A stretch of 64,000 nt of DNA from positions 1,240,001 through 1,304,000 of the forward strand of contig NZ_JARBAX010000002.1 of NCBI RefSeq assembly GCF_028807635.1. Direction: 5' to 3'. Source of the DNA: Streptomyces spiramyceticus (GTDB lineage Bacteria; Actinomycetota; Actinomycetes; Streptomycetales; Streptomycetaceae). This document shows positions 72 through 20,653 of this stretch, in pieces. Below the pieces are notes generated by a model that was not told the DNA's origin, did no database searches, and saw only the letters and a list, made by a program, of their open reading frames with translations. The first letter of the stretch is position 1. Every line of letters starts with the position of its first letter. The position numbers were made by a program, and so were the translations under genes.

Positions 72-1436
72 TCACGCCAGGCGGCGGAATACGGGCTTCA
101 CCGGCCGCCCGGCCAGCCAGGGGGTGGGGTCGGCGGCGTCCAGTGCCTTCCGGTACACCGCACATGCCTGGGCCACCACGTCGACGGTGCGGTCGATGTC
201 GGCGTCGCCGAGCGCGCTGCTCACCACGAACGACGGGGCCAGCACTCCGCCCGCGAGGAGCCGGCGCAGGAACAGGGTGCGGTACTGCTGCGACGGCTGC
301 CGGTTCTCGTCGAGGGTGGCGAAGACCAGGTTGCTGGCCCGGCCCCGGACGACGACGTGGTCGCCGACGCCCATGCCGGCCGCGGCCGCGCGGACACCGG
401 CGGCCAACCGCTCGCCGAGGGCGTGCAGTTGCGCGGTAGTGCCCTCCTCGACATAGGTGGTCTGCACGGCCATCGCGGCTGCCAGCGAGTGGGTTTCCGC
501 GCCGTGCGTGGTGGACAGCAGGAACACCCGGTCGCCGGAGTGACGCAGCCCGCCCCGCTCCATCAGGTCGCGGCGCCCGGCCAGCGCGGAGACGGCGAAC
601 CCGTTGCCCAGCGCCTTGCCGAACGTGGAGAGATCGGGGACGACGCCGTACAGGCCCTGGGCGCCCGCCTCCGACCAGCGGAAGCCGGTGATCATCTCGT
701 CGAAGATCAGTACGCAGCCGTGCCGGTCGGCCAGTTCGCGGAGGCCGGCGAGGTACCCGGGAGTGGGGTCTCCCCTGCTCGAACGAAGTTGAGAGCTAGG
801 GGAAGGCTCGGCGTGCCCGGCGGGTTCGAGGATCAGGCAGGCTATCTCGTCCTGGTACCGGGTGAGCAACTCCTCCGTGGCGGCCAAGTCTCCGTAGGGG
901 AACGCCACGGTGAGCTCGGTGGTGGCCGCCGGAATGCCGGCGGACATCGGTGTGGTGCCGATGAACCAGTCGTCGACGGAGAAGAACGGATGGTCGCCGC
1001 AGATGGCCACCCGCGGGCGCCCCGTGACGGCGCGGGCGAGGCGCACCGCGGCGGTGGTGACGTCGGAGCCGTTCTTCGCGAACTTCACCATCTCGGCGGT
1101 CGGCACGGTGGCCAGAAAGCGTTCCGCTGCCTCGACCTCCATGATGGACGGCCGGACGAAGTTGCTGCCGCGGTCGAGTTCCCGCCGCGCCGCCTCGACC
1201 ACGCGCGGGTGGGCGTGGCCGAGACTGACCGACCGCAGGCCGGAGCCGTATTCGATGTAGCGGTTGCCGTCGATGTCCCACACGTGGGCACCGCGGCCGT
1301 GGCTGATGACCGGGGCCAGGTTCTCGGGGTACTGGTCGTCGCCCTTGGCGTACGTGTGCGCGCCGCCGGGGATCATGGCGTGCAGCCGCTCGTTCGCACT
1401 CTGCGACCGGGGCAGGAGGAACTCTTCGGTGTCCAC
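72..1436 (-). CDS. Class III (GSA-aminomutase-like) PLP aminotransferase
   Basis: A 454-residue fold-type I PLP enzyme of the glutamate-1-semialdehyde aminomutase family. It shows the N-terminal GGAHTY segment, the FDEMITGFR motif (Asp246) and TFGKALGNG, whose Lys274 should form the Schiff base. Haem-pathway HemL enzymes lie near hem genes; this copy ends a polysaccharide operon, so it more likely transaminates or isomerises a nucleotide-sugar or a small polymer substituent (inference). It starts with GTG, 7 bp after the epimerase-like gene. Residues about 210-225 (PSPSSQLRSSRGDP) are encoded by a dispersed repeat and interrupt the segment between LILEPAGH and GYLAGLREL, just before the active-site Asp. 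Family is secure; substrate unknown. Confidence 0.88.
   Translation of the reverse strand: MDTEEFLLPRSQSANERLHAMIPGGAHTYAKGDDQYPENLAPVISHGRGAHVWDIDGNRYIEYGSGLRSVSLGHAHPRVVEAARRELDRGSNFVRPSIMEVEAAERFLATVPTAEMVKFAKNGSDVTTAAVRLARAVTGRPRVAICGDHPFFSVDDWFIGTTPMSAGIPAATTELTVAFPYGDLAATEELLTRYQDEIACLILEPAGHAEPSPSSQLRSSRGDPTPGYLAGLRELADRHGCVLIFDEMITGFRWSEAGAQGLYGVVPDLSTFGKALGNGFAVSALAGRRDLMERGGLRHSGDRVFLLSTTHGAETHSLAAAMAVQTTYVEEGTTAQLHALGERLAAGVRAAAAGMGVGDHVVVRGRASNLVFATLDENRQPSQQYRTLFLRRLLAGGVLAPSFVVSSALGDADIDRTVDVVAQACAVYRKALDAADPTPWLAGRPVKPVFRRLA
764..806 (-). repeat. Dispersed ~43 bp repeat inside the aminotransferase gene
   Basis: On the minus strand this reads CCTTCCCCTAGCTC...TCGAGCAGGGGAGACCCCA. 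The same sequence with about seven differences occurs on the plus strand at 6080-6123. Its arms CCCCT/AGGGG are complementary, so it could form a hairpin. It adds about 14-15 codons without breaking the frame. Confidence 0.75.
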
Positions 1437-1443
1437 GCTGACT

Positions 1444-1995
1444 TCAGCTCTCTTTCTGCTTCAGGGCCTCGGCGAGGCTCGGTGCCTCCCGGTCCCGCTT
1501 GGACATCGATGTGGCCGGCAGCGGCCAGGGGATGGCGAGTTCCGGGTCGTCGAAGGCGATCGTCACGTCCTCGGCCGGATCGTGCGGGCGGTCGATCTGA
1601 TACGAGATGTCTGCGGTCTCGGTCAGCGCTTGGAAGCCGTGCGCGCACCCCGCCGGGACGTACAGGGTCACCTGCGTCTCGCCGGACAGGTCGAAGGAGG
1701 CCACGTTGCGGTAGGTCGGCGAGTCCGTCCGCAGGTCCACGACGACGTCGAAGACCCTCCCGTACGAGCACCGCACGAGCTTGGCCTCGCCGGCGCCGGA
1801 GCGCAGGTGCAGGCCGCGCAGCACGCCTCGCACCGAGCGGGACAGGCTGTGCTGGACGAAGGCGTTCGGGTCGAGGCCCACCGAGCGGACCACGTCGGCG
1901 TCGAAGGTGCGGCAGAAGAAGCCGCGTTCGTCGGCGTACGGCGTCGGCTCGAACAGGTACGCGCCGGCGATCGCCGGGACTTCGGTCGCTTTCAT
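1444..1995 (-). CDS. dTDP-4-dehydrorhamnose 3,5-epimerase-like cupin (RmlC family)
   Basis: A 183-residue cupin of usual RmlC length. Diagnostic stretches are DERGFFCRTF, QHSLSRS, RGLHL, the LVRC segment, VDLRTDSPTY and VPAGCAHGFQ. The family epimerises C3 and/or C5 of 4-keto-6-deoxy nucleotide sugars. A complete dTDP-rhamnose pathway (rmlA, B, D) is absent here and a glucose-1-phosphate cytidylyltransferase is nearby, so the substrate may be a CDP-linked 4-keto sugar (inference). The ATG start has GGAGG about 5 nt upstream and overlaps the preceding gene by 4 bp (ATGA). The frame runs open further upstream, but that part lies over the neighbouring gene. Confidence 0.88.
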   Translation of the reverse strand: MKATEVPAIAGAYLFEPTPYADERGFFCRTFDADVVRSVGLDPNAFVQHSLSRSVRGVLRGLHLRSGAGEAKLVRCSYGRVFDVVVDLRTDSPTYRNVASFDLSGETQVTLYVPAGCAHGFQALTETADISYQIDRPHDPAEDVTIAFDDPELAIPWPLPATSMSKRDREAPSLAEALKQKES

Positions 1996-3239
1996 GGGGC
2001 CTCCTGGCAGGCGTGGGGTCGGGGATGGTCGGCCGCCGGGAACAGGGCCGCGGTCAAGGCGGTGAACTGGGACTCGAGTTGTCCGGTGGCGATCAGGTTC
2101 CGCTCGGCGAGGGTTCGCCGCAGCTCCGCGGATCGCTTCTCCAGCGCCCGGAACTGTTCGAGCAGCCGGTCGGCGTCGACCTCGCGGGCCGGGTGGCAGT
2201 ACGCGGCAAGGCCCATCCGATCCATGAGCGCGTCGCTCTTCGCCGCATAGCTGAGGGCGAGCGTCGGAGTGCCGACCTTCAGCGCGCAGATCAGGTTGTG
2301 GTACCGGGTCGCCACCACGGCGCCGACAACCGCCGTCTCCTTCATCAGGTCGGCAAGCGAGGCCGTCTCGGCGGCGGTGACCAGCGGCGAGTCCACCGCG
2401 TCGAGGATCGCGGCCACCACCGGCGCATCGCACGCGTCGCCGGTGAGCAGCCGGACCGGCCTGCCGTCCTCGACCAGCGCGCGGACGAATCGGGTCGTCC
2501 CGTCGAGGTAGCGCCGGTGGATCTCCTCGGCCCGGGCGCGGTCGTCGTTGCCGCCGTGGAAGTCCATGACGCCGACGCAGACCGGGCCCGGCGCGTCCGG
2601 CGGACCCGAGGGCGCGCTCGACGGCGGCGTCGGCAGGGCGAAGGCGAGGTCCGGGTAGACCTCGTCGCGCGCCGTGTCCACGCCCATCTCCCGCATCGCG
2701 TCGCGGGATTGGGTGTCCCGGTACGACCGGTACGCGGCAAGGCGTGCCGACCAGCGCACCAGGGCCCGGGTCGGCCGGTTGCCGATCGCGGCGGCGCCGA
2801 CACCGACCAGCGCGACCCGCGTGCGCAGCAGCCGGCCGCTCGCGCAGAGCAGGATCAGCGAGTATGGGAAGCCCCACGGCCGCAGCGGCAGCGTGGCCTC
2901 CAGGACGCCCATGCCCGGCACGATCACCACGTCGTGCCGGCGCACCCAGGCGGCGGTGCGTACGGCGTCGACGAGTTTGCCCAGCCCCTTCCCCGCGATC
3001 GCGCCCGCCCGCGAGGCGGTCCGGTACTCGCCGCGGTACCAGTGCAGGCGCGTCGCGGGGATCCCGTACCGGGACGTGACGACCTCGGGTCCGCCGCACA
3101 GTGCGTCCACGACCGCCTCCGGGTGCTCGGCGCGGAGGTAGCCGAGCACTGCCTCGAGCGATCCGTCGTTGCCGAGGTTGCCGGAGCCGAGCAGGCCGAA
3201 CACCCCGACACGTACCGGGGTTTCGCCTCCGGACGTCAT
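1992..3239 (-). CDS. Polysaccharide pyruvyl transferase family protein
   Basis: A 415-residue protein with the N-terminal GxxGSGNLGNDG loop and the C-terminal VATRYHNLICAL segment typical of the CsaB/WcaK pyruvyl transferase superfamily (PF04230). Members attach ketal-linked pyruvate from PEP to sugars of capsules, exopolysaccharides or secondary cell-wall polymers, giving negative charge. It lies between a GT2 gene and the RmlC-like gene with 4 bp overlaps on both sides, so translation is probably coupled. Acceptor sugar unknown; some relatives have other transfer roles. Confidence 0.82.
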   Translation of the reverse strand: MTSGGETPVRVGVFGLLGSGNLGNDGSLEAVLGYLRAEHPEAVVDALCGGPEVVTSRYGIPATRLHWYRGEYRTASRAGAIAGKGLGKLVDAVRTAAWVRRHDVVIVPGMGVLEATLPLRPWGFPYSLILLCASGRLLRTRVALVGVGAAAIGNRPTRALVRWSARLAAYRSYRDTQSRDAMREMGVDTARDEVYPDLAFALPTPPSSAPSGPPDAPGPVCVGVMDFHGGNDDRARAEEIHRRYLDGTTRFVRALVEDGRPVRLLTGDACDAPVVAAILDAVDSPLVTAAETASLADLMKETAVVGAVVATRYHNLICALKVGTPTLALSYAAKSDALMDRMGLAAYCHPAREVDADRLLEQFRALEKRSAELRRTLAERNLIATGQLESQFTALTAALFPAADHPRPHACQEAP

Positions 3240-4192
3240 GCCTGCCTCCCTTCACGACCTTCACGTCCGGCGACGAGGGCGTCCACGGAGACGCTGAGCA
3301 GGGCCGGGTCGACCGGGGCGCGGTCCTCGACCCGCTCGCCGGCGCCCGGCCGGACCCGGCTGGCCATCCATGCGGCCAGGTGGCGGTAGCACGCGCGCCG
3401 GTCGGCCGGGGACAACGGCGCCCGCCGGATCGCCGAGGCGAAGCCCCAGAGGTACTCGGCGAGCAGCCGGGGCGTCGGGTGCAGCAGGCCTGCCCGGCGC
3501 GGGTCGAGGTTGACGCACCGGGAGCGCTTGCCGGGGTTCGCCCGCTCGGCGCGGGTGGGGTGGTCGCGGCGGAAGTACAGCAGCTCCGGCACCTGGTGGA
3601 AGGGCCCGTGCAGGGTGATCTCGGCGACGAAGGTGCGGTCCGCGTGGTGGTAGCTGTCGTGCGGCTTCACCCGGCGCAGCACGTCGGCCCGCATCACCCC
3701 GTAGAAGTCGTCGCCACCGGGCTCGAACAGCAGACTGCGGAAGCGCTCCGGCGCGTGTGGCGAGTCGGTGGCGAGCCCGTACTCGTACGGGACCTTCACC
3801 TGGCCGTCGCCGTCGATGACCGCCTGGCCGGAGTGCGCGAGGATCACGTCCGGCCGCTCGTCCAGCGCCTCCACGCAGCGCCGCAGCAGGTCCCGGGCGT
3901 ACAGGTCGTCGTGCGAGGCCCACTTGAACAGCTCGCCGCGGCACTCGGTGAACACGTAATTGTGGTTCGGTGCGGCGCCGATGTTCCGGGGCAGCCGTAT
4001 GTACCGGATGCGCGAGTCCTGCGCGGCGTACTTGCGGCAGATGCCCTTAGTCCCGTCGGTCGAGGCGTTGTCGGAGATGACCAGCTCGAAGTCCTCGTAG
4101 GTCTGGCCGAGCAGGGCGTCGAGCGCCTCGGCGAGGTACTCCTCGCCGTTGTAGACGGGCAGGCCGATGCTCATCCGGGGATGGGCGGTCAT
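3236..4192 (-). CDS. Family 2 glycosyltransferase
   Basis: A 318-residue GT-A enzyme. SIGLPVYNGEEYL and ELVISDNASTDGT form the nucleotide-binding half and ASHDDLY supplies the acidic metal-binding motif. The remainder is the acceptor-binding half (HADRTFVAEI). It should add one sugar of the repeat unit on the cytoplasmic side. The ATG chosen sits in an ATGA overlap with the flippase gene; the open frame upstream is a shadow of that gene. Donor and linkage cannot be read from sequence. Confidence 0.9.
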   Translation of the reverse strand: MTAHPRMSIGLPVYNGEEYLAEALDALLGQTYEDFELVISDNASTDGTKGICRKYAAQDSRIRYIRLPRNIGAAPNHNYVFTECRGELFKWASHDDLYARDLLRRCVEALDERPDVILAHSGQAVIDGDGQVKVPYEYGLATDSPHAPERFRSLLFEPGGDDFYGVMRADVLRRVKPHDSYHHADRTFVAEITLHGPFHQVPELLYFRRDHPTRAERANPGKRSRCVNLDPRRAGLLHPTPRLLAEYLWGFASAIRRAPLSPADRRACYRHLAAWMASRVRPGAGERVEDRAPVDPALLSVSVDALVAGREGREGRQA

Positions 4193-5508
4193 GGCGTCCT
4201 CACTTCGCGGTTGGGGTTCTGGTGGCGCTCGCGCAGGGCGGACCGCAGCTGCAGCCACCACACGGCCGAGCTGCTCAACGTCGCGGCGGCGACGCCCCAG
4301 GCCGAGCCGACCGTGCCGGCCACGGCCGCCCCGCCGAGCCCGCCGATGACGTAACAGGCGGAGGCGAACAGCTGGCTGCGCAGGCTGCGCCGGGCCGCGG
4401 CGAGCGCGCGCAGTCCGGCCGCCGCGCCGGTGCCGAGGCCGGCGCCCGCGACGCCGAGCGTGGCCGGCACGATGAGCTCCGAGGCGGCGTGCCAGACGTC
4501 GCCGAGTACGAGCTCGCCGGCCCGGTCCGGCATCAGCAGCAGCGCCCCGCCCCAGAGCAGCGCGGCGGCGGCCTGCCCGCCGCCCAGCAGGAGGCAGAAC
4601 CTGCCGAGGCGGTGCGGGGCTTGGCGCAGCACCCGTGCCGCCTCCGCGACGGTGACCAGCGACAGCCCCATCAGCACAGCGAGGAACGGGCCGAGCAGGA
4701 GCTCGGCGCCCCGGACCACACCCACCGCGCTGACCCCGACGATCGCGCCGAGCCCGAACGCCCGCAGCTGGCTCGCGCCGCTGGTGCTGACGTTCTCGAC
4801 CAGGTATCGGTAGCCGAGGTCGCGGTGCTCGCGAATCCACTCGCGCGCTCCGGTCAGCTGGGGCCGGATGCCGGACTGGAGGCAGCCGGCCACCGCGGCC
4901 ACCGCGGCGGACGCGCCCCAGGCGAGCACGAAAGCGGCCACGCTGCCCACGCGGGCCGCCACCACCATGGCCGGGACGAGCGCGACGCCCCACACGAGGT
5001 CGTTGACGAATGCCTTCCGCCCGGTGCCGGCGGCGAAGAACGCGTACCGCCAGGCGTCCTGCAGCAGCAGCCCCGGCAGGATGACGCCGAGGCAGGCGAA
5101 CGCGGGCCCCACTGGGCCGCCGACAGCAAGCCCGACCACCAGACACACTGCGCCGATGGCGGCACCGACGCCGAGCGCGCTACCCGACGACCGGGCCACC
5201 GCCCCGCGCCAGGACGCGTCCGACACGCCGCTGAAGCGCACCACGAGGGGGTCGGTGGCCACCCCACGGGAGACGCTGAGCACCACGCCGTAGGTCACCC
5301 AGGCCAGGCTGAACACGCCGAACGCGGCCAGCCCCAGCGAGCGTGCGACGTAGATCCCCACCGCGAAGTTGGTCATGCTGGAGGCCGCCTGGTCGGCCAG
5401 TCCCCAGGACAGCCGGCCGACGATGGCCCGCCCGGCGGTCAGCCGGGCGTGTCTGGCCCCGGCCGCCGAGGGCATCGGCTTCTCCCTCCCGGTGGTCATG
5501 GGCGTCAT
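4189..5508 (-). CDS. Wzx-type polysaccharide flippase (MOP superfamily)
   Basis: A 439-residue integral membrane protein with about twelve hydrophobic segments separated by short Arg-rich loops, starting with a RAIVGRLSWGLADQ amphipathic helix. This architecture and size match O-antigen/teichoic-acid flippases (PST/MOP superfamily). It would move the lipid-linked repeat unit across the membrane for the polymerase-like protein at 11770-13002. The start is the first ATG of MTPMTT, giving the 4 bp ATGA overlap that recurs in this operon; the second Met is 9 bp downstream. Confidence 0.82.
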   Translation of the reverse strand: MTPMTTGREKPMPSAAGARHARLTAGRAIVGRLSWGLADQAASSMTNFAVGIYVARSLGLAAFGVFSLAWVTYGVVLSVSRGVATDPLVVRFSGVSDASWRGAVARSSGSALGVGAAIGAVCLVVGLAVGGPVGPAFACLGVILPGLLLQDAWRYAFFAAGTGRKAFVNDLVWGVALVPAMVVAARVGSVAAFVLAWGASAAVAAVAGCLQSGIRPQLTGAREWIREHRDLGYRYLVENVSTSGASQLRAFGLGAIVGVSAVGVVRGAELLLGPFLAVLMGLSLVTVAEAARVLRQAPHRLGRFCLLLGGGQAAAALLWGGALLLMPDRAGELVLGDVWHAASELIVPATLGVAGAGLGTGAAAGLRALAAARRSLRSQLFASACYVIGGLGGAAVAGTVGSAWGVAAATLSSSAVWWLQLRSALRERHQNPNREVRTP

Positions 5509-6818
5509 GCCTCGATCAGCCCGGCGCCGTGCAGGGCGTCGGCCGCGGCGGCGACGGCGCCGAACGGCAGCCCGGACCGCTCGGCGACGTCCAGCAGACT
5601 GTGCTCGCCGTCGGAGAGGCTGAGCACCCAGAGCATGGCCATCTGGGCCTGCTTCGCGTCGCTGCGGCCGCCGAGTGAGTCGTACAACCCTCGTCGGCCC
5701 AGCTGTGGCTCGCCGTAGGGGCTGAGGTTGACGTACTGCCGGTTGCGGTCGAGGACGGCGAATGCCTCGCGGCAGACTGCAAGGGTGTCCGCCATCGCCT
5801 CCGGGGTGACGAAGTCCGGGTTGTCCGCCGAGGTGTGGTACTCGGGGTAGCCGGCGTACGGGGTCCGGCTGAGCGAGCCCACGCCGAGGTCGAACCCGGG
5901 CGAGCAGAACTGCCGCTCGTCGTAGCCGTACGGAGTGAACTCGGCGACGCTGTGCGGGCGTTCGGAGGCGGCCAGCACGTGCCGCATCACCCGGTCGATC
6001 TCCGCGTTGCCTCGCCTGCTCTGCTTGTACGTCAGTTGACCCGAGTCGCCGGCACAGGCCAGCACAAGCCCGTGCTTGACCCTTCCCCCAGCTCTCGGCT
6101 CCGCTCGAGCAGGGGATGCCCCATTGATCCGCTCCGCGTTGCGGGCCAGCCAGGTGATCGCCCCGATGGTGCCGGGCGCGAACAGGAACCGGTAGGTGTA
6201 GTACGGCGTTTCCTGTGCCAGCGCCCGGGCCAAGAACGTCGCCACCGCGATGCCGGCCAGGTTGTCGTTGGCCAGGGATGGGTGGCAGACGTGGCAGGAG
6301 ACGATCACCTCGTCGGGGACCTGCCCGGGGACGACGTGCTCGGCGTAGGTGAGGTGGCCGTCTGCGAGTGTGGAGTCGATGCGCACCTCGTACTCGCCGT
6401 CCGGCAGCGCGTCCAGGGTCTCCTGGGCCAGGCAGAACCCCCATTCCGGCGTGTAGTAGCTGGTGCGGTACGGCACCCAACTTGGGTGGTCCGGCAGGGT
6501 GTGCAGGTGTTCACGCAGCTCGGCCAGAGGCATGGTCGCCGACACCGGCACGCTGTAGCCGAGCACGTGCAGGCTGGACGCGGCGAAGTCGACGACCCGG
6601 TTGCCGGTGGTGTCGGCGATGTACGCGTCCCGGATGTTCCACTCCTGCGGCACCGTCCAGTCGAGCACTTGCGTCCCGGTCGGCACCTCGTGCACCTGCA
6701 GCGGAACGTACTCGCCGACGATCTCCAGGGTGGCGCGCACACCGTCGCCGGTGATGCTCCGGCACAGCGGGTACAGCCGCTCCACCAGCGCGTGCATCTC
6801 CTCACCGACAGCGGTCAT
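5505..6818 (-). CDS. DUF4910 / M28-like aminopeptidase-fold protein
   Basis: A 437-residue protein of the DUF4910 family, a peptidase-like zinc fold followed by a small winged-helix-like C-terminal domain (about 365-437). Visible motifs are SCHVCHPSLANDNLAG (175-190, probable metal ligands His and Asp), YTYRFLFAPGTIGAITWL, YKQSRRGNAEID and TPYGYDERQF. Members occur in polysaccharide clusters beside CDP-sugar genes, but their reaction is not established to my knowledge. About 15 residues (231-245) after ITWLARNAER are encoded by a dispersed repeat. The SDR gene precedes it and the flippase follows, with 4 bp overlaps on both sides. Confidence 0.85.
   Translation of the reverse strand: MTAVGEEMHALVERLYPLCRSITGDGVRATLEIVGEYVPLQVHEVPTGTQVLDWTVPQEWNIRDAYIADTTGNRVVDFAASSLHVLGYSVPVSATMPLAELREHLHTLPDHPSWVPYRTSYYTPEWGFCLAQETLDALPDGEYEVRIDSTLADGHLTYAEHVVPGQVPDEVIVSCHVCHPSLANDNLAGIAVATFLARALAQETPYYTYRFLFAPGTIGAITWLARNAERINGASPARAEPRAGGRVKHGLVLACAGDSGQLTYKQSRRGNAEIDRVMRHVLAASERPHSVAEFTPYGYDERQFCSPGFDLGVGSLSRTPYAGYPEYHTSADNPDFVTPEAMADTLAVCREAFAVLDRNRQYVNLSPYGEPQLGRRGLYDSLGGRSDAKQAQMAMLWVLSLSDGEHSLLDVAERSGLPFGAVAAAADALHGAGLIEA
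6080..6123 (+). repeat. Second copy of the dispersed repeat, inside the DUF4910 gene
   Basis: Reads CCTTCCCCCAGCTC...TCGAGCAGGGGATGCCCCA on the plus strand, the same unit as at 764-806 but opposite in orientation. It lies in frame in the host gene and encodes residues NGASPARAEPRAGG between conserved blocks of the DUF4910 protein. Confidence 0.75.
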
Positions 6819-7840
6819 CGGCGCCACCGCAGGGTGTCGTCGACGGCGCCGGCGTCGGACGCCTCGCGCAGCACGGCAAGCCGGGTGAAGCGCTGCTCGA
6901 AGTCCTCCCGGGTCAGTCCGAACTTCCGGTAGGCGTCGGCGAGTTCGAGTGCGCCCCGCTTCACCGTCCACTCGCAGTCGAAGCCGGGTATCGCGGCGCG
7001 GAACCGGGAGAAGTCCACCCGGTACGACCGCGGATCGGCACCGGTCTCCCCGGTGATCACCACCTTCGCGCCGGACACCGCCTCGGCGACCTGCTCGGCG
7101 ATCTCGGCGACCGTGACGTTGTTGGTCTCGCTGCCGATGTTGAACGCCCGGTCGTGCACCGCTTCGCGCGGCGCGGTCAGTGCGGCCGTGAAGGCCCGGG
7201 CGATGTCGGCGGCGTGCACCAGCGGGCGCCAGGGGGTGCCGTCGGAGAGCACGAGGACCTCGCCGGACAGGAGCGCGTGGCCCACCAGGTTGTTCAGCAC
7301 GATGTCGGCGCGCAGCCGGGGCGAGTAGCCGAAGGCGGTGGCGTTGCGCATGAACACCGGGGTGAAGTCGCCGTCGGCCAGCGCGTGCAGGTCGTCCTCC
7401 ACCCGCACCTTGGACTCCGCGTACGGCGTGACCGGGCGCAGCGGGGCGTCCTCGCTCACCAGGTCGCCGCCGCCGGCGGCGCCGTAGACCGAGCAGGTCG
7501 ACGCGTAAAGGAAGCGCCGTACTCCGGCGTCGCCGGCCAGCCGGGCCAGCCGTACGGAGGCGTGGTGGTTGATGTCGTAGGTGAGGTCCGGCGCCAGCGA
7601 TCCCAGCGGGTCGTTGGAGAGCGCGGCCAGGTGGATCACGGCGTCCACCCCGGCCACGTGTTCGGCCGTGACGTCGCGCAGGTCCACCCGATGCCCCTGC
7701 GGGTCGGCGGGCGACGGGCCGAGGACGCAGTCGGCGAACAGGCCGGCGTCGAGGCCGACGACCTCGTGCCCGGCAGCCGCGAGGACCGGGGCCATCACGG
7801 TGCCCAGATAGCCCTGGTGTCCGGTCAGTAGTACGCGCAA
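6815..7840 (-). CDS. NAD(P)-dependent sugar epimerase/dehydratase (extended SDR)
   Basis: A 341-residue extended SDR. GHQGYLG (7-13) binds the dinucleotide, ASTCSVYG carries the catalytic Ser/Thr and YAESK (Tyr140, Lys144) the catalytic pair. It resembles nucleotide-sugar 4-epimerases and dehydratases. Next to a glucose-1-phosphate cytidylyltransferase it is the only candidate in this block for the 4,6-dehydratase or ketoreductase step, but sequence alone cannot decide. The start is TTG (CAA at 7838-7840) with a GGGGGA upstream, 3 bp after the PIG-L stop. Confidence 0.85.
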   Translation of the reverse strand: MRVLLTGHQGYLGTVMAPVLAAAGHEVVGLDAGLFADCVLGPSPADPQGHRVDLRDVTAEHVAGVDAVIHLAALSNDPLGSLAPDLTYDINHHASVRLARLAGDAGVRRFLYASTCSVYGAAGGGDLVSEDAPLRPVTPYAESKVRVEDDLHALADGDFTPVFMRNATAFGYSPRLRADIVLNNLVGHALLSGEVLVLSDGTPWRPLVHAADIARAFTAALTAPREAVHDRAFNIGSETNNVTVAEIAEQVAEAVSGAKVVITGETGADPRSYRVDFSRFRAAIPGFDCEWTVKRGALELADAYRKFGLTREDFEQRFTRLAVLREASDAGAVDDTLRWRR

Positions 7841-7843
7841 GGT

Positions 7844-8491
7844 TCAATCCCCCAGGTTGAGCGTGAGTTTGGTGACGGCGAACGCCTCGGCGTATCGCTC
7901 GTGGCATTCGATGCCGCGGATCCGGGCAAGGCCGAGGAAGGCCTCCCGGTCGTACCAGGGCCGGTGCCGCTGCGAGGGGTAGTGCTCCTGCAACAGCCGC
8001 ACCTTTTGTTCGGCGATCTCCGGCGACAGCGGCTGGTACGCCCCCATACGGCCGAGATCGCCGTCCCACTTGACGATCTCGTAGCCGAGCACGAGGTGGT
8101 CGCGGAAAGCGGTGGTCATCAGCTTCGCCAGGCCGCGGTGATCCTGGTGCGCGTCATCGGTACGCGGTGCGAGGACCAGATCCGGCTCGGTCCGCTCGCG
8201 CAGCTCCTCGACCGCGGCCTTGGCCCCCTCCCAGTGCGCCGGCAGTCGGCCGTCCGGCAACTTGTCCACGGCCAGGCGCAGTTCGGCGCCCGGGCAGAAG
8301 GCGGCGAGCGCGGCCCGCTCCTCCTGCTCCCGCTCGCTGCCACCGCCGGAGAGCACCAGCGCGTCGATGCGCGTGCCCGGATGTGCGAGGCACATCGTCA
8401 GCAGCGTGCCGCCGGCGCCGATGGCGATGTCGTCGCAGTGCGCGCCCACCGCGACGATCCGGTCCAGGCGCCCGGCCCCGAGCCGGATCAC
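7844..8491 (-). CDS. PIG-L / LmbE family deacetylase
   Basis: A 215-residue PIG-L (LmbE-like) protein. The zinc site AHCDD (17-21) near the N terminus and the DDAHQDHRGL motif with two further His are intact, so an active metal-dependent N-deacetylase of an N-acetyl-sugar derivative is expected. The GTG start lies in a GTGA overlap with the cytidylyltransferase gene; an ORF that begins 13 codons earlier overlaps that gene without reason. Its place between CDP-sugar and SDR genes points to nucleotide-sugar or lipid-linked sugar deacetylation (inference). Confidence 0.87.
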   Translation of the reverse strand: MIRLGAGRLDRIVAVGAHCDDIAIGAGGTLLTMCLAHPGTRIDALVLSGGGSEREQEERAALAAFCPGAELRLAVDKLPDGRLPAHWEGAKAAVEELRERTEPDLVLAPRTDDAHQDHRGLAKLMTTAFRDHLVLGYEIVKWDGDLGRMGAYQPLSPEIAEQKVRLLQEHYPSQRHRPWYDREAFLGLARIRGIECHERYAEAFAVTKLTLNLGD

Positions 8492-9282
8492 GCGCTCACC
8501 CCCGCGCCGTCCCGTTCCCACACGGCCCACGGGCGGTCACCCCGGGCGTAGGCGGTGTCGAGCGCGGCCCGCTCCTTCACGGTGTCGGTCGGCTTCCAGA
8601 AGCCGCGGTGCTGGTGCGCCACCAACCGGCCCTGCTTGGCCAGTTGTGCGCATCCGTCGGCGACCAGGTCCCCGTTCTCCGGTATGTGGTCGAAGACCTC
8701 CTGGCGGAGCACGAAGTAGCCGCCGTTCTCCCACAGCGGCAGTTCACTCACCGCGGTGATGCCCCCCACCAGGCCGTCCTCGCCCAACTCCACGCAGTGG
8801 AACGACGACTGCGGCGGCACCACCATCATCGACGCACCGGCGTCGCGCCGGGCGAACCGGTCGATCATCTCGGGCAGCGGGGCGTCGGTGAGCACGTCGG
8901 CGTAGTTGGCGAGGAACATCTCGTCGCCGTCCAGGTGGTGCCGCACCCGGCGCAGCCGCTCTCCGATCGGTGACTCGATGCCGGTCTGCGCGAACGTGAT
9001 CGTCCAGTCCGAGATGTCGGTGGACAGCAGCTCGGTCCGCCCGCCCCGCAGCACGAAGTCGTTGGACGTCGTCTCCTCGTAGTTGAGGAAGAAGTCCTTG
9101 ATGTGGTGGGCCCCGTACCCGAGGCACAGGATGAACTCCGTGTGCCCGAAGTGCGCGTAGTAGCGCATGACGTGCCAGATCAGCGGCCGGGGGCCGACCA
9201 TCGCCATCGGCTTGGGCACGTCGTCCGCGGCACCGCTCCGCATCCGCATCCCGTAACCGCCGCAGAACAGGACGACCTTCAT
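8488..9282 (-). CDS. rfbF: Glucose-1-phosphate cytidylyltransferase
   Basis: A 264-residue sugar nucleotidyltransferase with FCGGYGMRMR at the N terminus, VPKPMAMVG, the LCLGYG segment, DVLTD and the late FWKPTDTVKER motif typical of RfbF/DdhA. It makes CDP-glucose from CTP and glucose-1-phosphate, the entry step to CDP-3,6-dideoxyhexoses and branched CDP sugars such as yersiniose. No obvious RfbG-type CDP-glucose 4,6-dehydratase or RfbH 3-dehydrase is in the window. It sits between the C-methyltransferase and PIG-L genes. Confidence 0.92.
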   Translation of the reverse strand: MKVVLFCGGYGMRMRSGAADDVPKPMAMVGPRPLIWHVMRYYAHFGHTEFILCLGYGAHHIKDFFLNYEETTSNDFVLRGGRTELLSTDISDWTITFAQTGIESPIGERLRRVRHHLDGDEMFLANYADVLTDAPLPEMIDRFARRDAGASMMVVPPQSSFHCVELGEDGLVGGITAVSELPLWENGGYFVLRQEVFDHIPENGDLVADGCAQLAKQGRLVAHQHRGFWKPTDTVKERAALDTAYARGDRPWAVWERDGAGVSA

Positions 9283-9293
9283 GCTGTGCCCTT

Positions 9294-10529
9294 TCAAGAC
9301 GCGACCTCGACAATGCTCAGTTCCGGGATGGGAAAGACAAGGCGGCCGCCCCACTCGTGCACGAAGGACAGTTGCTCGACCAGTTCGGCCCGCAGGTTCC
9401 ACGGGAGGACGAGTACGTAGTCGGGCTTGTCGGCGGCTATCCGCTCGGGCGGCAGGATCGGGATGCGGGTGCCCGGGGTGAACCTGCCGTGCTTGTAGGG
9501 GTTGCGGTCGACCGTGTACGGCAGCAGGTCGGGCCGGATGCCGCAGTGGTTGAGCAGGGTGTTGCCCTTGCCCGGGGCGCCGTAGCCGACGACCGTCTCG
9601 CCGCGCTCGGCCGCCTCGATGAGGAACCGCAGGAGGTCCCGGCGCACCTTGGCCACCCGGGCGGAGAACTCGGTGTACCCGGACAGCTCCTGCAGCCCGG
9701 CGGCCTTCTCCCGGTCCAGCACGTCGGCCACACGCCGGGTCGGCTCGCCGGCCACCTCGGCCGGCCGGGCCCACAGCCGGACGGAGCCGCCGTGCGTGGG
9801 CAGCAACTCGACGTCCACGAGCGCGAGTCCGCCGCTGGCCAGTGCCCGGGCCGCGGACGCGACTGTGTAGTACTGGAAGTGCTCGTGGTAGATCGTGTCG
9901 TACTGGTTCTCCTCGATCAGGGTCAGCAGGTGCTGCACCTCGATGGAGACCCAGCCGTCGTCGGCGACCAGGGCGCGCAGCCCCCGGGTGAACCCGACCA
10001 CGTCGGGGATGTGCGCGTACACGTTGTTGGCCACGACCAGGTTCGCCGGGCCGTGCTCGGCGCGGACGGCCGAGCCGGTGGCCGGGTCCAGGAACTCCGT
10101 GAGTGTGGGCACACGCGCGTCCCGCGCCGCGGCGCCGACGTTCACCGACGGCTCGATGCCCAGGCAGCGGATCCCCCGGTCCACCATGTGCTTGAGCAGG
10201 TACCCGTCGTTGCTGGCGACCTCGACCACGAAGGCGTCGGAGACGAGAGCGAGGCGCGCCGCGGTGTCGGCGACGAACGTGCGCGCGTGCTCCACCCAGG
10301 AGGTCGAGTACGAGGAGAAGTACGCGTACTCCTTGAACGTCTCCTCCGGCGTGATCAGCGGCGGTATCTGCGCCAGCCAGCAGTCGGTGCAGACCCGCAG
10401 GTGCAGCGGGTACGCCGGCTCCGCCGTGTCCAGTTGGTCCGCGGCGAGAAAGCTCTCACATGGTGGCGTCGCCCCGAGATCGACGACGCTCGCCATCGCT
10501 TCCGAGCCGCAGAGTCGGCATTTGGTCAT
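9294..10529 (-). CDS. Zinc-binding sugar C-methyltransferase (NovU/TylCIII type)
   Basis: A 411-residue enzyme with the three-part layout of nucleotide-sugar C-methyltransferases: an N-terminal zinc module (Cys4, Cys7, Cys47, Cys50), a SAM-binding Rossmann domain (VVEVASNDGYLL near 105-116), the QYDTIYHEHFQYYT motif, and a C-terminal domain with VGYGAPGKGNTLLN. Characterised relatives methylate C3 or C5 of 4-keto-6-deoxy nucleotide sugars. Paired with a CDP-glucose synthase 11 bp downstream, it suggests a C-branched CDP sugar. ATG start within an ATGA overlap with the GT4 gene. Confidence 0.88.
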   Translation of the reverse strand: MTKCRLCGSEAMASVVDLGATPPCESFLAADQLDTAEPAYPLHLRVCTDCWLAQIPPLITPEETFKEYAYFSSYSTSWVEHARTFVADTAARLALVSDAFVVEVASNDGYLLKHMVDRGIRCLGIEPSVNVGAAARDARVPTLTEFLDPATGSAVRAEHGPANLVVANNVYAHIPDVVGFTRGLRALVADDGWVSIEVQHLLTLIEENQYDTIYHEHFQYYTVASAARALASGGLALVDVELLPTHGGSVRLWARPAEVAGEPTRRVADVLDREKAAGLQELSGYTEFSARVAKVRRDLLRFLIEAAERGETVVGYGAPGKGNTLLNHCGIRPDLLPYTVDRNPYKHGRFTPGTRIPILPPERIAADKPDYVLVLPWNLRAELVEQLSFVHEWGGRLVFPIPELSIVEVAS

Positions 10530-11767
10530 CTACTGTCCCCATCCCCCCTGCTCGCGTGGGTGTCCCCGCCGCGAGTCATTGCTGACCGCCCCGCGATCGC
10601 GGTGCGGTACCCCTCCACCAGGCGCTCGAGGCCGACGGCCGGGCTGAACCCCTGCTCGTAACGGCGCCGGGCCGCCCGGCCCATCTCCCGGCCCAGGTCC
10701 GGCTCGGCCGCGATCCGGCGTATGCAGGACGCGAGCGAGGCGGCCTCGCCCGGCCGGTGCAGCAGCCCGGTCACCCCATCATCGACGAGTTCTACGAAGG
10801 CGCCGTGTCCGGCGGCGACGGTCGGGACCCCCGCCGCCATCGCCTCCACGACCACCAGGCCGAACGCCTCCAGCCAGGTCGAGGGAGCCACCACGGCGAC
10901 CGACCGGGCGATGGCCTTTTGGCACTCCGCCGTGTCGTACAGGCCGACATAGCGCACGTCGTCCCGGCCCGCCGCCCAGGCGGTCACCTCTCGCTCCAGT
11001 GGCCCGGCGCCGGCGATCACGAGTGGCACGCCCACACCGCCGTCGGCGGCGATCTCGTCCCACGCCGTCATGAGCAGCCGCACGCCCTTGGCCTCCGCGA
11101 GCCGGCCGAGATAGAGCAGCTGCTCGCCGGCGCCCGCTCGGCCGGCGCCCGGGTCGGGCACGAAGTTGTGCTTCACCGCCAGCCGCTCGGCCGGCATGCC
11201 GGCCTGCACCAGGACGTCGCGCTGCGCCGCGGAGATGCAGAAGAACCGCTCCACGCCGGACCACCACCGCCGCCGGTTGACCGACAGGCTGACCGCGAGC
11301 GGCACCGTCGCAAGGCGGGAGTTCCGGTAGCAGCCGTGCCGGACGGCGGGCAGCGGCGCCGACCCGACGCACTCGGTGCACGGCCGGCCGTCCCGCTGCA
11401 GCGTGCCGGGCGGGCAGACCTGGGTGTAGTTGTGCAGCGTGGCGACGGCGGGCACGCCGGCGTCGGCGCAGGCGGCAAGCACCGCGGGCGACAGGAGCGG
11501 GAAGACGTTGTGGACGTGCACCACGTCCGGCCGCTCGGTGCGAAGCCGGTCGGCGAGCTCCGCGCGAACCGCCGGGTTCCACGGCACAAGGAGCGGCACC
11601 GCGGCCTTGGCAAGGAGGGACCGGGCGGCGATGTCGTCGCTGCGCCGCTCGAACACCTCGACCCGGTGGCCGGCCTCGCGCAGCAGCGCCACCTCCTGGT
11701 CGACGACCTTGTTCTCCCCGCTCGGCTGGGCCGAGGCGTAGCGGTTGTGCACCACGAGGACGTGCAT
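10526..11767 (-). CDS. Family 4 glycosyltransferase
   Basis: A 413-residue GT-B enzyme. The N-terminal domain holds HNRYASAQPSGENKVV and VVHVHNVFPLLSP; the C-terminal domain has LLYLGRLAEAKGV and the E-x7-E type signature EAFGLVVVEAMAAG. An unusual cysteine pair (CTEC...) in the N-terminal domain is also seen in many GT4 proteins of this type. It should transfer one sugar to the lipid-linked acceptor. The ATG start gives a 2 bp gap from the polymerase-like gene; the upstream open frame is a shadow. Confidence 0.9.
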   Translation of the reverse strand: MHVLVVHNRYASAQPSGENKVVDQEVALLREAGHRVEVFERRSDDIAARSLLAKAAVPLLVPWNPAVRAELADRLRTERPDVVHVHNVFPLLSPAVLAACADAGVPAVATLHNYTQVCPPGTLQRDGRPCTECVGSAPLPAVRHGCYRNSRLATVPLAVSLSVNRRRWWSGVERFFCISAAQRDVLVQAGMPAERLAVKHNFVPDPGAGRAGAGEQLLYLGRLAEAKGVRLLMTAWDEIAADGGVGVPLVIAGAGPLEREVTAWAAGRDDVRYVGLYDTAECQKAIARSVAVVAPSTWLEAFGLVVVEAMAAGVPTVAAGHGAFVELVDDGVTGLLHRPGEAASLASCIRRIAAEPDLGREMGRAARRRYEQGFSPAVGLERLVEGYRTAIAGRSAMTRGGDTHASRGDGDSR

Positions 11768-11769
11768 GC

Positions 11770-13002
11770 TCAGGTCACCTCCGATTTTCGGGCCCATCGG
11801 GGTATGTGTCGTCGAGGGACTTCGGGCGTCGAGAGGGGAGTGGCCGAGGCAGGTGCCGCAAGCAGCGAGGCGGCCACGGTCAGATGCAGCAGATACGGCG
11901 AGGCGTCGCCCAGCCCGGCCTCGGTGTACGACGCGATCGCGCAGTAGCTGATCAGGAAGATCGCGCAGGCCCTCGACAGCGACGGTGGCCGCAGCAACGC
12001 GACGCCGCCAAGCACGATGATGATCGCCGCCACCAGGGCGACGCCGGTCAGACCCTGCTCGTGGTAAACGGCCAGCCAGCTGTTGTCGATCGGCAGCCCG
12101 CCGAACGACTTGTCGCCCAGGCCCGCGCCGAACAGCTGCTCCGAGGTCGACCGGGGGGCTGCCAGCAGGGCGTCCCAGACCTTGGCCCGACCGGTGAGGT
12201 TGGAGAAGTTCTCTTTGCTCTGTCCGCGCAGGAACCACGCCTGCAGCGCGGAGCTGAACGCCACCGCGGCCACGACGGCGCACAGCACCGCCCAGGCGAA
12301 GAACCGGCGGGCGGCGGCGCTGGTCAGGAGGAGCGAGCCGATTGCCAACACCAGCCCGATGAACAGGCCGAGCGTGGCCGTCCGGGTATGGGTCAGCGCG
12401 AGCAGGACGAGTGCCGGCACGATGACTACCGCCGCGCTGCGCCTGTCGGTCCGGCGGCCCAGAACGAGCAGCACGGTGAGCCCGATGATCACCGCGGCGT
12501 ACTGTCCGATCTGCGGCGGGGTGAGCGGCCACAACGCGCCGACCAGCCGCCCGCCGTAAAGGTCGGGCATGGCGGCGCCCGGTGAGATGACCAGGCCGGC
12601 GGCCACCGACCCGAGGACCACGAAGTAGATCCGGATGTGGTGCCGGACGAACGTCGGGCTGCCGTCCCACCAGCGGCTGAGCAGCCACAGCGTGCCGACG
12701 AAGAGAGCCAGCCGGGCGCAGCGGAACAGCGCGCCGAACCCGGACTCCAGGTTCGCGCTGGAGATCACGCTCGGCACCAGCAGCAGGGTGAGCAGGAATA
12801 CGAAGGCGCTGGCCCGGACGCGCAGCCGGAGATTGACTGCGAGCGCCAGCGCGAACGCGGCGACCAGCGCGCCCATGGTGACCATCTGGATGAGGGAGCG
12901 GGGCAGCGGGACGATGGTCTTCGCCCCGGCGGAGCCGAGCGTGTTGAGGATCAGCAGCCCCCAGGCTGTCCCGACGATCTTCGAGGTGTGGTCCGCGCCC
13001 AT
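11770..13002 (-). CDS. O-antigen ligase / Wzy-like polymerase membrane protein
   Basis: A 410-residue protein with roughly ten to twelve transmembrane segments and a long periplasm-side loop containing GRAKVWDALL, as in the Wzy_C (PF04932) family of O-antigen ligases and polymerases. In a Gram-positive context it would polymerise flipped repeat units or ligate polymer to an acceptor. Start chosen at ATG (MGADHTSK); a GTG lies 12 bp upstream and overlaps the beta-helix gene. It fits functionally with the flippase (4189-5508) and the Wzz proteins (20654-23538). Confidence 0.8.
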   Translation of the reverse strand: MGADHTSKIVGTAWGLLILNTLGSAGAKTIVPLPRSLIQMVTMGALVAAFALALAVNLRLRVRASAFVFLLTLLLVPSVISSANLESGFGALFRCARLALFVGTLWLLSRWWDGSPTFVRHHIRIYFVVLGSVAAGLVISPGAAMPDLYGGRLVGALWPLTPPQIGQYAAVIIGLTVLLVLGRRTDRRSAAVVIVPALVLLALTHTRTATLGLFIGLVLAIGSLLLTSAAARRFFAWAVLCAVVAAVAFSSALQAWFLRGQSKENFSNLTGRAKVWDALLAAPRSTSEQLFGAGLGDKSFGGLPIDNSWLAVYHEQGLTGVALVAAIIIVLGGVALLRPPSLSRACAIFLISYCAIASYTEAGLGDASPYLLHLTVAASLLAAPASATPLSTPEVPRRHIPRWARKSEVT

Positions 13003-13003
13003 C

Positions 13004-14524
13004 TCAACCACCGTCCCGTGCGCGGAAGGTGCTGCCCGCGTCCTGCTGGTACGGCGTGCCCTGCCACTGTCCGAAGTCGAGCACCCGGCTCGGGTCGTGG
13101 GCCACGAACTTCCATGGGCCGAGGTAGACGTTGTCGTGCCAGCGGTTGTGCTGCTTGCGGGTGATCGCCTCAGCCACCCGCTCGCCCTGGTAGGGCGACC
13201 AGTCCGGATAGGTGCCGTAGTTGGCAAGGACCGCCATTCGGTCGCACTTCACCGTGCACTCGACGACGGACTTGTCCAGCACGAAGCGGTTGTCGTGGAT
13301 GTCCACCCGCTGGGTCTTCCACCGGCAGTCGTCGTAGAGCGGTGCGGTGGCGATCGCCGGCCGCGCGCAGCGGTCGGTATTGTTCACCAGCAACGTGCAG
13401 TCACCGGACGAGGTGTTGGCCGGGCTGTTGCAGAACCGGTCGGCGTTTTCCCACAGGGTGATCCCGGACCAGTTGTTCTCCAGCACGTTCCGGTAGATCT
13501 CGATCTTGTCCGTGCGGGCTCGGATCCGTGGTTCGCCGCCGGACTCGGACAGGTAGACGGTCGCGAGCGGGAAGCTGTCGCCGCGGTCGGCATACTTGCG
13601 GCCCTCGACCCAGTTGTTCCGCCGGATCGTGTTCTTCCGGATGACCGCGTTGTAGCTGGTCTCGTAGATCAGCGCGGCACCGTCGTTGGCCTCGAGCACG
13701 TTGTCCTCGATGCGGAAGTCGTTGTTGTTGGTGTCCGCCCACAACCCGGTTCCGCGGTTGTCGTGCACCCAGTTGCCCCGCACGTCGGCGCCGTTGACGG
13801 CCCAGAACTTGATGCCTCCGGTGCAGCCGCAGCCCTTCCGCCGCCGCTCCCAGTCGTCGGTGTTGTTGCCCACGATCTCGTTGCCCTCGACCACCAGGTC
13901 GCTGAGAGGGCCGCCGGCCTTGTACGCGTTCATGCCGTACTGGCCGTTGCCGCGCAGGCAGCTGGCGCGGACCCGCTGGCGGGCACCGGCCATCAGCCCG
14001 GCACCGGAGTTGTGCTGGATCGTCGCGTGCTCGATCACCCACCCGTCGGCCGAGTCATGGTTGACCACGCCCTCGTCCGGCGGCGCCACGAAACGTTGCA
14101 CGGTCAGGTGGCGGATGGTGACGTCGCGGGCGGTACCGCCGAACGCGTACTGATTGGTCTTCCGGCCGTCGAGCACCGCGCTTGGCGCGCCGAGGTAGCG
14201 GTTCCCCTTCTTGGGGATGACCTGGGCGTAGCGGTTCGGCTCGAGCCTGTGCTTGCCCGGTCGAAGCCAGAACGTGGTGTTCGGGGGGCTGCTCTTGGTC
14301 TTCGCAGCGACGTCACCGATCACCGCGGGGTCGACCGTCACCGCGCCCGCCGGCGCCTTCGCCGGCCCGGCCACGGGCTTGGCGCACACCCGGGCCACGG
14401 ACGTGGCTCGTGCAACGGTCGGCTCCGCCGGGGGGCCCGGTGTACTCACGCAGCCAGTCGCCGTCAGCAGTACCAGCACCAGCCGTGCCGTCGGCAACGC
14501 CCAGTGCCGCTTCTCGATCACCAC
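13004..14524 (-). CDS. Secreted right-handed parallel beta-helix protein
   Basis: A 506-residue export candidate. The N terminus has RHW then a hydrophobic run ending in TATGC, a signal peptide with a weak lipobox. From about residue 75 it is built of repeating beta-helix coils rich in N-x-N ladders (VEGNEIVGNN, NWVHDNRGTGLW, DNVLEANDGA, KNTIRRNNW). The fold is that of polysaccharide lyases, epimerases and glycosidases, including mannuronan C5-epimerases, but I see no motif that fixes the reaction. It starts at GTG 14524 (or the adjacent GTG 14521) behind AGGGGGA. The flanking heparinase-like gene supports a role on the uronic-acid polymer. Confidence 0.78.
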   Translation of the reverse strand: MVIEKRHWALPTARLVLVLLTATGCVSTPGPPAEPTVARATSVARVCAKPVAGPAKAPAGAVTVDPAVIGDVAAKTKSSPPNTTFWLRPGKHRLEPNRYAQVIPKKGNRYLGAPSAVLDGRKTNQYAFGGTARDVTIRHLTVQRFVAPPDEGVVNHDSADGWVIEHATIQHNSGAGLMAGARQRVRASCLRGNGQYGMNAYKAGGPLSDLVVEGNEIVGNNTDDWERRRKGCGCTGGIKFWAVNGADVRGNWVHDNRGTGLWADTNNNDFRIEDNVLEANDGAALIYETSYNAVIRKNTIRRNNWVEGRKYADRGDSFPLATVYLSESGGEPRIRARTDKIEIYRNVLENNWSGITLWENADRFCNSPANTSSGDCTLLVNNTDRCARPAIATAPLYDDCRWKTQRVDIHDNRFVLDKSVVECTVKCDRMAVLANYGTYPDWSPYQGERVAEAITRKQHNRWHDNVYLGPWKFVAHDPSRVLDFGQWQGTPYQQDAGSTFRARDGG

Positions 14525-14532
14525 GCGTCCCC

Positions 14533-18698: not shown

Positions 18699-18715
18699 CC
18701 GAAGTCCCCTTGTTC

Positions 18716-20650: not shown

Positions 20651-20653
20651 GTG

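Follow-up and report, generated by a model that had tools for sequence, protein, structure and literature searches.

What does an operon make when it combines a cytidylyltransferase-like nucleotidyltransferase with a C-methyltransferase, a PIG-L-type deacetylase, a short-chain dehydrogenase/reductase (SDR) and a DUF4910 protein? The question was raised by a stretch of 64,000 nucleotides from Streptomyces spiramyceticus (contig 2, NZ_JARBAX010000002.1, positions 1240001-1304000; hereafter the window), in which these five genes follow each other on the minus strand (5505..10529). The original prediction described them as a possibly undescribed pathway leading from cytidine diphosphate (CDP)-glucose to a branched CDP-deoxy sugar. 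The gene set is shared by many bacteria and probably makes a sugar with an unusual carbon branch, destined for a surface polysaccharide. What is new here is a divergent type of cytidylyltransferase and its partnership with PIG-L. The module itself is real, conserved and partly described already, and is thus not wholly undescribed.

Conservation of the gene set

The tight packing of the five genes was borne out. They are contiguous, with spacings of +11, -4, +3 and -4 bases when the start of the PIG-L gene is taken as 8491. The closest relative of the DUF4910 protein comes from Streptomyces (95% identity), which indicates a Streptomyces-like host genome.

Conservation was analysed in 80 named DUF4910 loci (the best 80 of 586), seven plasmid loci hand-picked from 42 records and 12 loci out of a draw of 296 Actinomycetota genomes. 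Loci were scored with profiles made from the window and five plasmid loci, and were called full when at least 7.5 kb was present on each side of the DUF4910 gene. Among 36 loci of Streptomycetaceae, all 32 full ones carried the same six partners, i.e., C-methyltransferase, cytidylyltransferase, PIG-L, SDR, RmlC-type epimerase and aminotransferase. Other taxa provided 60 loci with a DUF4910 protein over the score limit, 46 of them full, where the partners were found in 39, 38, 33, 37, 36 and 24 loci, respectively; all six were present in 21 loci, five or more in 31, and none in five. The consistent co-occurrence that had been proposed as a check was hence obtained. Module-bearing loci belong to Alphaproteobacteria, Cyanobacteria, one Anaerolineae genome and other Actinobacteria, and since the set recurs across phyla, the association of these genes is more than chance. 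On a plasmid of Streptomyces sp. KN37 the gene order is identical to that of the window operon. The recurring unit holds seven genes instead of the five predicted, namely those of the block plus an RmlC-type epimerase and a class III aminotransferase located beyond it.

The draw of Actinomycetota genomes is the fairer sample, and DUF4910 was found in 13 of its 296 genomes. Five loci of this draw were outside the genus and over the score limit; three had the C-methyltransferase, two had PIG-L and none had all six partners. Therefore, DUF4910 has further contexts.

A divergent nucleotidyltransferase and its PIG-L partner

The first enzyme had been named glucose-1-phosphate cytidylyltransferase. 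Whereas the Pfam families assigned to the block hold, this particular name is shaky: the protein reaches 185 bits with the RfbF model TIGR02623 (curated cut-off 300.25) and thus falls outside that family by score, and it stays below the cut-off of Pfam NTP_transferase (19.9 vs 21.2). RfbF is nevertheless its closest relative by sequence and by predicted fold, the modelled fold being the same. Two kinds of enzyme were distinguished in the collected loci, six RfbF-like (type I) and 76 divergent (type II, including the window). With TIGR02623, five type I enzymes scored 389-468 bits, while four type II enzymes besides that of the window scored 205-229. The residues that we take to be catalytic in nucleotidyltransferases (G10, G11, R15, K25, R111, D131 and D236 in 1tzf numbering) are kept in all 76 type II enzymes. 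The Glu-Lys-Pro motif of RfbF (E178-K179-P180), which presumably holds the sugar phosphate, is present in 6/6 type I enzymes and lost in type II. Compared with RfbF (1tzf, 1wvc, TIGR02623), the window enzyme thus differs by score, by this motif and by the adjoining PIG-L gene. The sugar that it loads may differ from the textbook glucose, and CDP-glucose synthesis, as originally predicted, is not upheld.

The loss of the motif goes along with the presence of PIG-L, which was found in all 75 type II loci outside the window but in 0/6 type I loci. The two genes lie at most 400 bases apart on one strand in 73/76 loci. Glu and Lys are both present in 31/31 PIG-L-less enzymes covering the motif (eight more do not cover it), whereas 68 of 69 PIG-L-linked enzymes have another residue at the Lys position. 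The remaining one must be that of locus L104, an intermediate (271 bits) and the sole locus mixing a Glu-Lys-Pro enzyme with PIG-L. Across 396 Actinomycetota genomes, 70 cytidylyltransferase places were typed, giving 13 type II, 56 type I and L104 as the one exception; PIG-L adjoins 13/13 and 0/56 of the two types, respectively (hypergeometric p 1.8e-23 for an overlap of 13 between 14 and 13 genomes, with kinship ignored). In one further genus, all 21 newly fetched PIG-L places have a type II enzyme alongside.

The PIG-L protein itself displays the zinc motif and the fold of PIG-L/LmbE deacetylases. GalB has the same fold, yet does something other than sugar de-N-acetylation. In locus L112, a DRL-type oxidoreductase (PF21135; 8090-9508) lies directly ahead of the type II enzyme and PIG-L, and no C-methyltransferase was found there.

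Putative sugar-modifying enzymes

Nucleoside diphosphate (NDP)-sugar 4,6-dehydratases carry a T-D-E motif with an Asp-Glu pair. At this place the SDR relatives show S-[TS]-C-S (S-T-C-S in the window): Cys occupies the Asp position in 91/91 proteins without Glu at the following position, and the Asp/Glu pair occurs in 0/91, while the active-site Tyr and Lys are kept in 91/91. The nearest structure is 6vo6 (103 bits; the next scores 81), which we take to be Cj1427. The latter is described as a C4-dehydrogenase (PMC10680097).

A search of the whole genome for RfbG, the CDP-glucose 4,6-dehydratase, gave three weak matches, the best at 75.7 bits (cut-off 278.45). The SDR was ruled out as RfbG by both motif and score. 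As the SDR lacks the dehydratase motif and no RfbG over the cut-off is encoded in the genome, the predicted 6-deoxy sugar is not supported, and from these sequence features the final sugar need not be deoxy. A precedent is 3-C-methyl-D-mannose of the Helicobacter pylori O antigen, in which the C6 hydroxyl is kept (PMC12961483). The original prediction also stated that RfbG and RfbH are missing and named a pair of them elsewhere in the operon as an argument against it. No such pair is present in the operon, and the absence holds for RfbG across the genome and for RfbH in the block. One RfbH-family gene over the cut-off (661.5 bits, cut-off 423) does exist about 72 kb before the window. Its group (L172, contig 2, 1164500-1184000; 2051-3475 and 10717-18255) also encodes RmlA (411 bits), two DegT-type transaminases and a P450, and is probably a deoxythymidine diphosphate (dTDP)-sugar cluster; RfbH was thus rejected as a member of this route.

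The C-methyltransferase is closest to the D-mycarose 3-C-methyltransferase 4rv9 (280 bits), followed by TcaB9 (245-249 bits), and its four zinc Cys and the Y-H-E-H residues are kept in 97/97 proteins, in keeping with the TylC3/TcaB9 family. A C-branched nucleotide sugar, as predicted, is likely. In three loci of one Actinomycetota family a second, shorter C-methyltransferase-like gene (Methyltransf_13, Methyltransf_14) adjoins the module (L115:6198-7343, L117:12570-13700 and L118:6036-7163), and L113 likewise has two C-methyltransferase matches. The RmlC-type epimerase keeps the His of RGxH and the Tyr in 92/92 proteins.

The class III aminotransferase keeps its pyridoxal phosphate-binding Lys in 61/61 proteins. 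It is not the housekeeping hemL (214 bits vs a TIGR00713 cut-off of 527.3), because a better hemL is present elsewhere in the genome (587 bits). Reductases of two families, a classical SDR near PRK08219 (just below cut-off) and an extended SDR, appear as alternatives to it. At the limits used, the 60 loci outside Streptomycetaceae comprise 27 with the aminotransferase only, 19 with a reductase only, 14 with neither and none with both (Fisher p 5e-7 over the whole set and 2e-4 over the 46 full loci, kinship not removed). A tree-based pair test offered too few informative pairs. A reductase lies within 300 bases of the DUF4910 gene on the same strand in 15/19 loci, and the aminotransferase in 5/27. 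That these enzymes were never co-located suggests that either finishes the same carbonyl, some bacteria reducing it and others aminating it.

The simplest reading is that DUF4910 acts just ahead of this reduction or amination. The window protein matches the structure 3k9t (469 bits). Its zinc ligands are well conserved (His 97/97, Asp 94/97, His 97/97), and the peptidase acid positions are taken by Ser (94/97) and Pro (97/97), as is characteristic of the family. With both catalytic acids replaced, a peptidase function was rejected. Amide transfer by DUF4910 was rejected as a module-wide rule: both this aminotransferase and PIG-L are missing from 12 of the 19 reductase-type loci (6/10 among the fully flanked ones). 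This evidence is only suggestive, because short stretches account for six of the 12 loci and a DegT-type gene occurs in one of the 12, L061. One DUF4910 gene was seen in another setting, without the C-methyl set, on an Agrobacterium plasmid typed as conjugative (L018), near the pseudaminic acid genes pseB, C, F, G, I and H and an AAC(3)-type acetyltransferase.

Operon context

The operon genes are listed in Table 1.

Table 1. Genes of the operon in the window, given in the direction of transcription.
Feature	Position	Strand	Evidence and remarks
Further operon genes, starts not fixed	11770..22390	-	Pfam: Wzy-like, beta-helix, heparinase-like, ADH/Gfo-Idh bi-domain oxidoreductase, asparagine synthase-like, Wzz-like
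GT4 glycosyltransferase	10526..11767	-	PF00534 95 bits; 4-base overlap with C-methyltransferase
C-methyltransferase, TylC3/TcaB9 type, 411 aa	9294..10529	-	Pfam Methyltransf_13/23/14; PDB relatives
Divergent cytidylyltransferase-like nucleotidyltransferase (type II), 264 aa	8488..9282	-	
PIG-L/LmbE-type deacetylase-like protein	7844..8491 (GTG start, 4-base overlap) or start 8530	-	Pfam PIG-L 50 bits
SDR, predicted NDP-sugar C4 dehydrogenase/oxidoreductase, 341 aa, TTG start	6815..7840	-	PF01370 Epimerase 160 bits
DUF4910 + DUF2172 + HTH_47 protein, 437 aa	5505..6818	-	Pfam DUF4910 370 bits
Putative oligosaccharide flippase (SCO0397 position)	4189..5508	-	4-base overlap with DUF4910 gene
GT2 glycosyltransferase	3236..4192	-	PF00535 61 bits
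Polysaccharide pyruvyl transferase	1992..3239	-	PF04230 89 bits
RmlC-type 3,5-epimerase (module gene six)	1444..1995	-	PF00908 187 bits; TIGR01221 159 bits, cut-off 155.75
Class III (GSA (glutamate-1-semialdehyde)-aminomutase-like) aminotransferase (module gene seven)	72..1436	-	NF004856 704 bits, cut-off 486

From the GT4 gene down to the RmlC-like gene, adjacent genes overlap by 4 bases or stand 3-11 bases apart, and the aminotransferase gene lies 7 bases further on. The five-gene block is an arbitrary cut out of this 11-gene coupled stretch, because the 4-base overlaps continue past it on both sides, to the GT4 gene upstream and through the genes for flippase, GT2, pyruvyl transferase and the RmlC-like protein downstream. 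By predicted functions, the operon is an exopolysaccharide operon, devoted to polysaccharide export, with the block as its proposed sugar-making core. The Wzy-like match is weak and below the cut-off. The flippase counterpart at the same position in L013 is annotated as hypothetical protein, and annotated flippase genes are close to the module in L014 and L016. The gene order in 11770..22390 is that of L013 and of the product list for SCO0384-0391 (PMC3610822, Table 4).

In a scan covering cluster genes up to 22390, two genes showed a single TTA codon each: the heparinase-like gene (14533-16485; codon 327, counted from a start that is not fixed) and, close to its end, the asparagine-synthase-like gene (18716-20650; codon 642). 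These genes differ from the two TTA-containing ones reported for S. coelicolor, SCO0383 and SCO0399 (PMC2000904). A family of 300 aa (L034:7514-8413, with relatives in L046, L065, L069, L077, L076, L068 and L149) accompanies the module at close range in eight loci, of which five are cyanobacterial. At the limits used it matches nothing in Pfam or NCBIfam, and it shows, by eye, an H-x-D and a later His as in Fe/2-oxoglutarate oxygenases.

Proposed pathway and alternative explanations

The best model starts with the nucleotidyltransferase and PIG-L and proceeds through C4 oxidation, C3 methylation, C5 epimerisation and transamination to export into an exopolysaccharide; as a whole it is held with about even confidence. 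The divergent nucleotidyltransferase would activate a hexose-1-phosphate, probably other than plain glucose-1-phosphate, and PIG-L, its constant partner, would strip an acyl group (most simply N-acetyl) from the activated sugar. The SDR may then oxidise C4 with retention of the C6 hydroxyl, as in Campylobacter Cj1427, and the C-methyltransferase may methylate C3 of the resulting 4-keto sugar before C5 is inverted by the RmlC-type enzyme. A putative zinc-dependent, non-peptidase step of DUF4910 would fall near the final conversion, in which the remaining C4 ketone is presumably turned into an amine by the class III aminotransferase, related clusters reducing it instead. The glycosyltransferases would transfer the sugar, and the flippase, Wzy and Wzz genes would serve its export. 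The positions C3, C4 and C5 are proposed by analogy, because the nearest characterised relatives act there. Gene content, conserved catalytic residues and partner counts are direct observations, from which the order of steps, these positions and all substrates are deduced.

A bolder form of this model, to be regarded as doubtful, is a so far unrecognised two-enzyme entry. An N-acetylhexosamine-1-phosphate would be activated (the nucleotide is not certain) and de-N-acetylated at once by PIG-L, and the nucleotide hexosamine would be C4-oxidised and C3-methylated with the C6 hydroxyl kept. A class of C-methylated aminosugars could then exist in at least Actinobacteria, Alphaproteobacteria, Cyanobacteria and Chloroflexi, with DUF4910 catalysing a novel reaction ahead of a final step that can be either amination or reduction.

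A conventional CDP-deoxysugar route would make CDP-glucose, use the SDR or an enzyme in trans as 4,6-dehydratase, and give a CDP-6-deoxy-3-C-methyl sugar similar to vinelose, with PIG-L and DUF4910 as late tailoring enzymes. The relationship of the window enzyme to RfbF by sequence and predicted fold fits this route, as does the canonical RfbF of the six type I DUF4910 loci. A C-methyltransferase also occurs in 13 of 55 other canonical RfbF loci of Actinomycetota, and its characterised relatives are taken here to use 6-deoxy sugars. The corresponding S. coelicolor cluster has moreover long been named deoxysugar (PMC2000904). Set against this, the window enzyme is under the RfbF cut-off and lacks Glu-Lys-Pro, none of the 91 SDRs has the dehydratase pair and the genome has no RfbG over the cut-off, so that this route is considered somewhat unlikely. 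Still less probable is that the substrate of DUF4910 and PIG-L is not the nucleotide sugar but the completed polymer or a lipid-linked oligosaccharide. Their position amid glycosyltransferase and export genes would agree with such a role, but the close linkage of PIG-L to the nucleotidyltransferase makes it improbable.

The product could also be similar to kansosamine, a 3-C-methyl, 4-N-acylamino, 6-deoxy sugar of Mycobacterium kansasii lipooligosaccharide; the N-acyl group would then be the target of DUF4910 or PIG-L. A genus in which a PPE gene stands beside locus L116 groups the type II enzyme, PIG-L, C-methyltransferase and an RmlC-like gene, with the aminotransferase in 5/21 loci; DUF4910, however, is absent from 21/21. 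Four enzymes listed for the M. kansasii lipooligosaccharide cluster lack a counterpart in M. marinum, namely a cytidylyltransferase, an epimerase/dehydratase, a rhamnose epimerase and a methyltransferase, and the extra glycosyltransferases are expected by the authors of that study to serve fucose and N-acyl kansosamine (PMC4403928). The consecutive locus tags given there nevertheless leave no room for PIG-L between cytidylyltransferase and epimerase. Given also the 6-deoxy nature of kansosamine and the reductase-type loci that speak against an amide role of DUF4910, this explanation is quite unlikely. By analogy, the M. kansasii enzyme set (PMC4403928) provides a chemical lead toward a 3-C-methyl-4-amino sugar.

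Comparison with known systems

Enzyme types are shared with the thymidine diphosphate (TDP)-L-mycarose and tetronitrose pathways (TylC3, TcaB9), in which a 3-C-methyltransferase is followed by an RmlC-type 5-epimerase and a C4 conversion. The window differs by having no 4,6-dehydratase, no TDP enzyme and a class III instead of a DegT aminotransferase.

Cj1295 of Campylobacter jejuni, which we take to be a DUF4910/DUF2172 member needed for di-O-methylglyceroyl pseudaminic acid, differs from the window module by its nonulosonate pathway. It was found to modify the flagellin glycan and listed as putative aminopeptidase (Hitchen 2010, PMC3068675), with similar genes in C. acetobutylicum and others, mostly inside sugar clusters. 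The proposed module would place DUF4910 in a defined pathway beyond nonulosonate sugars.

Das et al. (2014, PMC4000134) solved a DUF4910 structure, noted the replaced peptidase residues and proposed from gene neighbourhoods a role in modified-carbohydrate synthesis. Their protein CA_C2195 (3k9t) is like that of the window in domain architecture, single-zinc site and Ser and Pro for the peptidase Asp and Glu, and the neighbourhoods reported include epimerase/dehydratase, nucleotidyltransferase and methylase genes as in the window. CA_C2195 differs in sitting among sialic-acid-type and N-acetyltransferase genes (Table 2 of PMC4000134). The terms PIG-L, cytidylyltransferase and aminomutase have no occurrence in the main text of that paper.

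The modification of guanosine diphosphate (GDP)-heptose in Campylobacter jejuni resembles the model in its C4 oxidation without dehydration and its variable last reductase, with the Cj1427 C4-dehydrogenase, C3/C5 epimerases and C4 reductases (PMC10680097). The window RmlC-type protein is related to GDP-heptose epimerase entries (8dak, 8db5; 60-70 bits). The Campylobacter route differs in its GDP-heptose substrate, and C-methylation, DUF4910 and PIG-L are not mentioned in the accessible text of PMC10680097.

The closest counterpart is the S. coelicolor SCO0381-0401 "deoxysugar/glycosyltransferase" cluster, whose products and order, compared by product list (PMC3610822 Table 4, PMC2000904), equal those of the window operon, the list ending with transferase, methyltransferase, transferase, hypothetical, epimerase/dehydratase, putative peptidase, hypothetical, glycosyltransferase, membrane protein, epimerase and GSA aminomutase (PMC3610822). 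Because this list matches and DUF4910 had been linked to sugar clusters by Das et al., the claim of a wholly undescribed set is not supported. The entry is traced to the genome paper (according to PMC3610822), and no product is named for it in the accessible parts of PMC3610822 and PMC2000904, nor did a product assignment come up in searches of open-licence PMC text. Transcripts of the cluster are more abundant in the second mycelium (PMC3610822). A bldA mutant has lower levels of four of the five proteins detected (PMC2000904), and nine of the genes figure as lowered in an adpA mutant of S. lividans (PMC4021200). In these transcriptome and proteome papers the cluster has for years been grouped with secondary metabolite clusters. 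Viewing it as a seven-gene module that starts with a non-canonical enzyme and lacks a recognisable dehydratase opens both the choice of sugar-1-phosphate and the deoxy status to testing.

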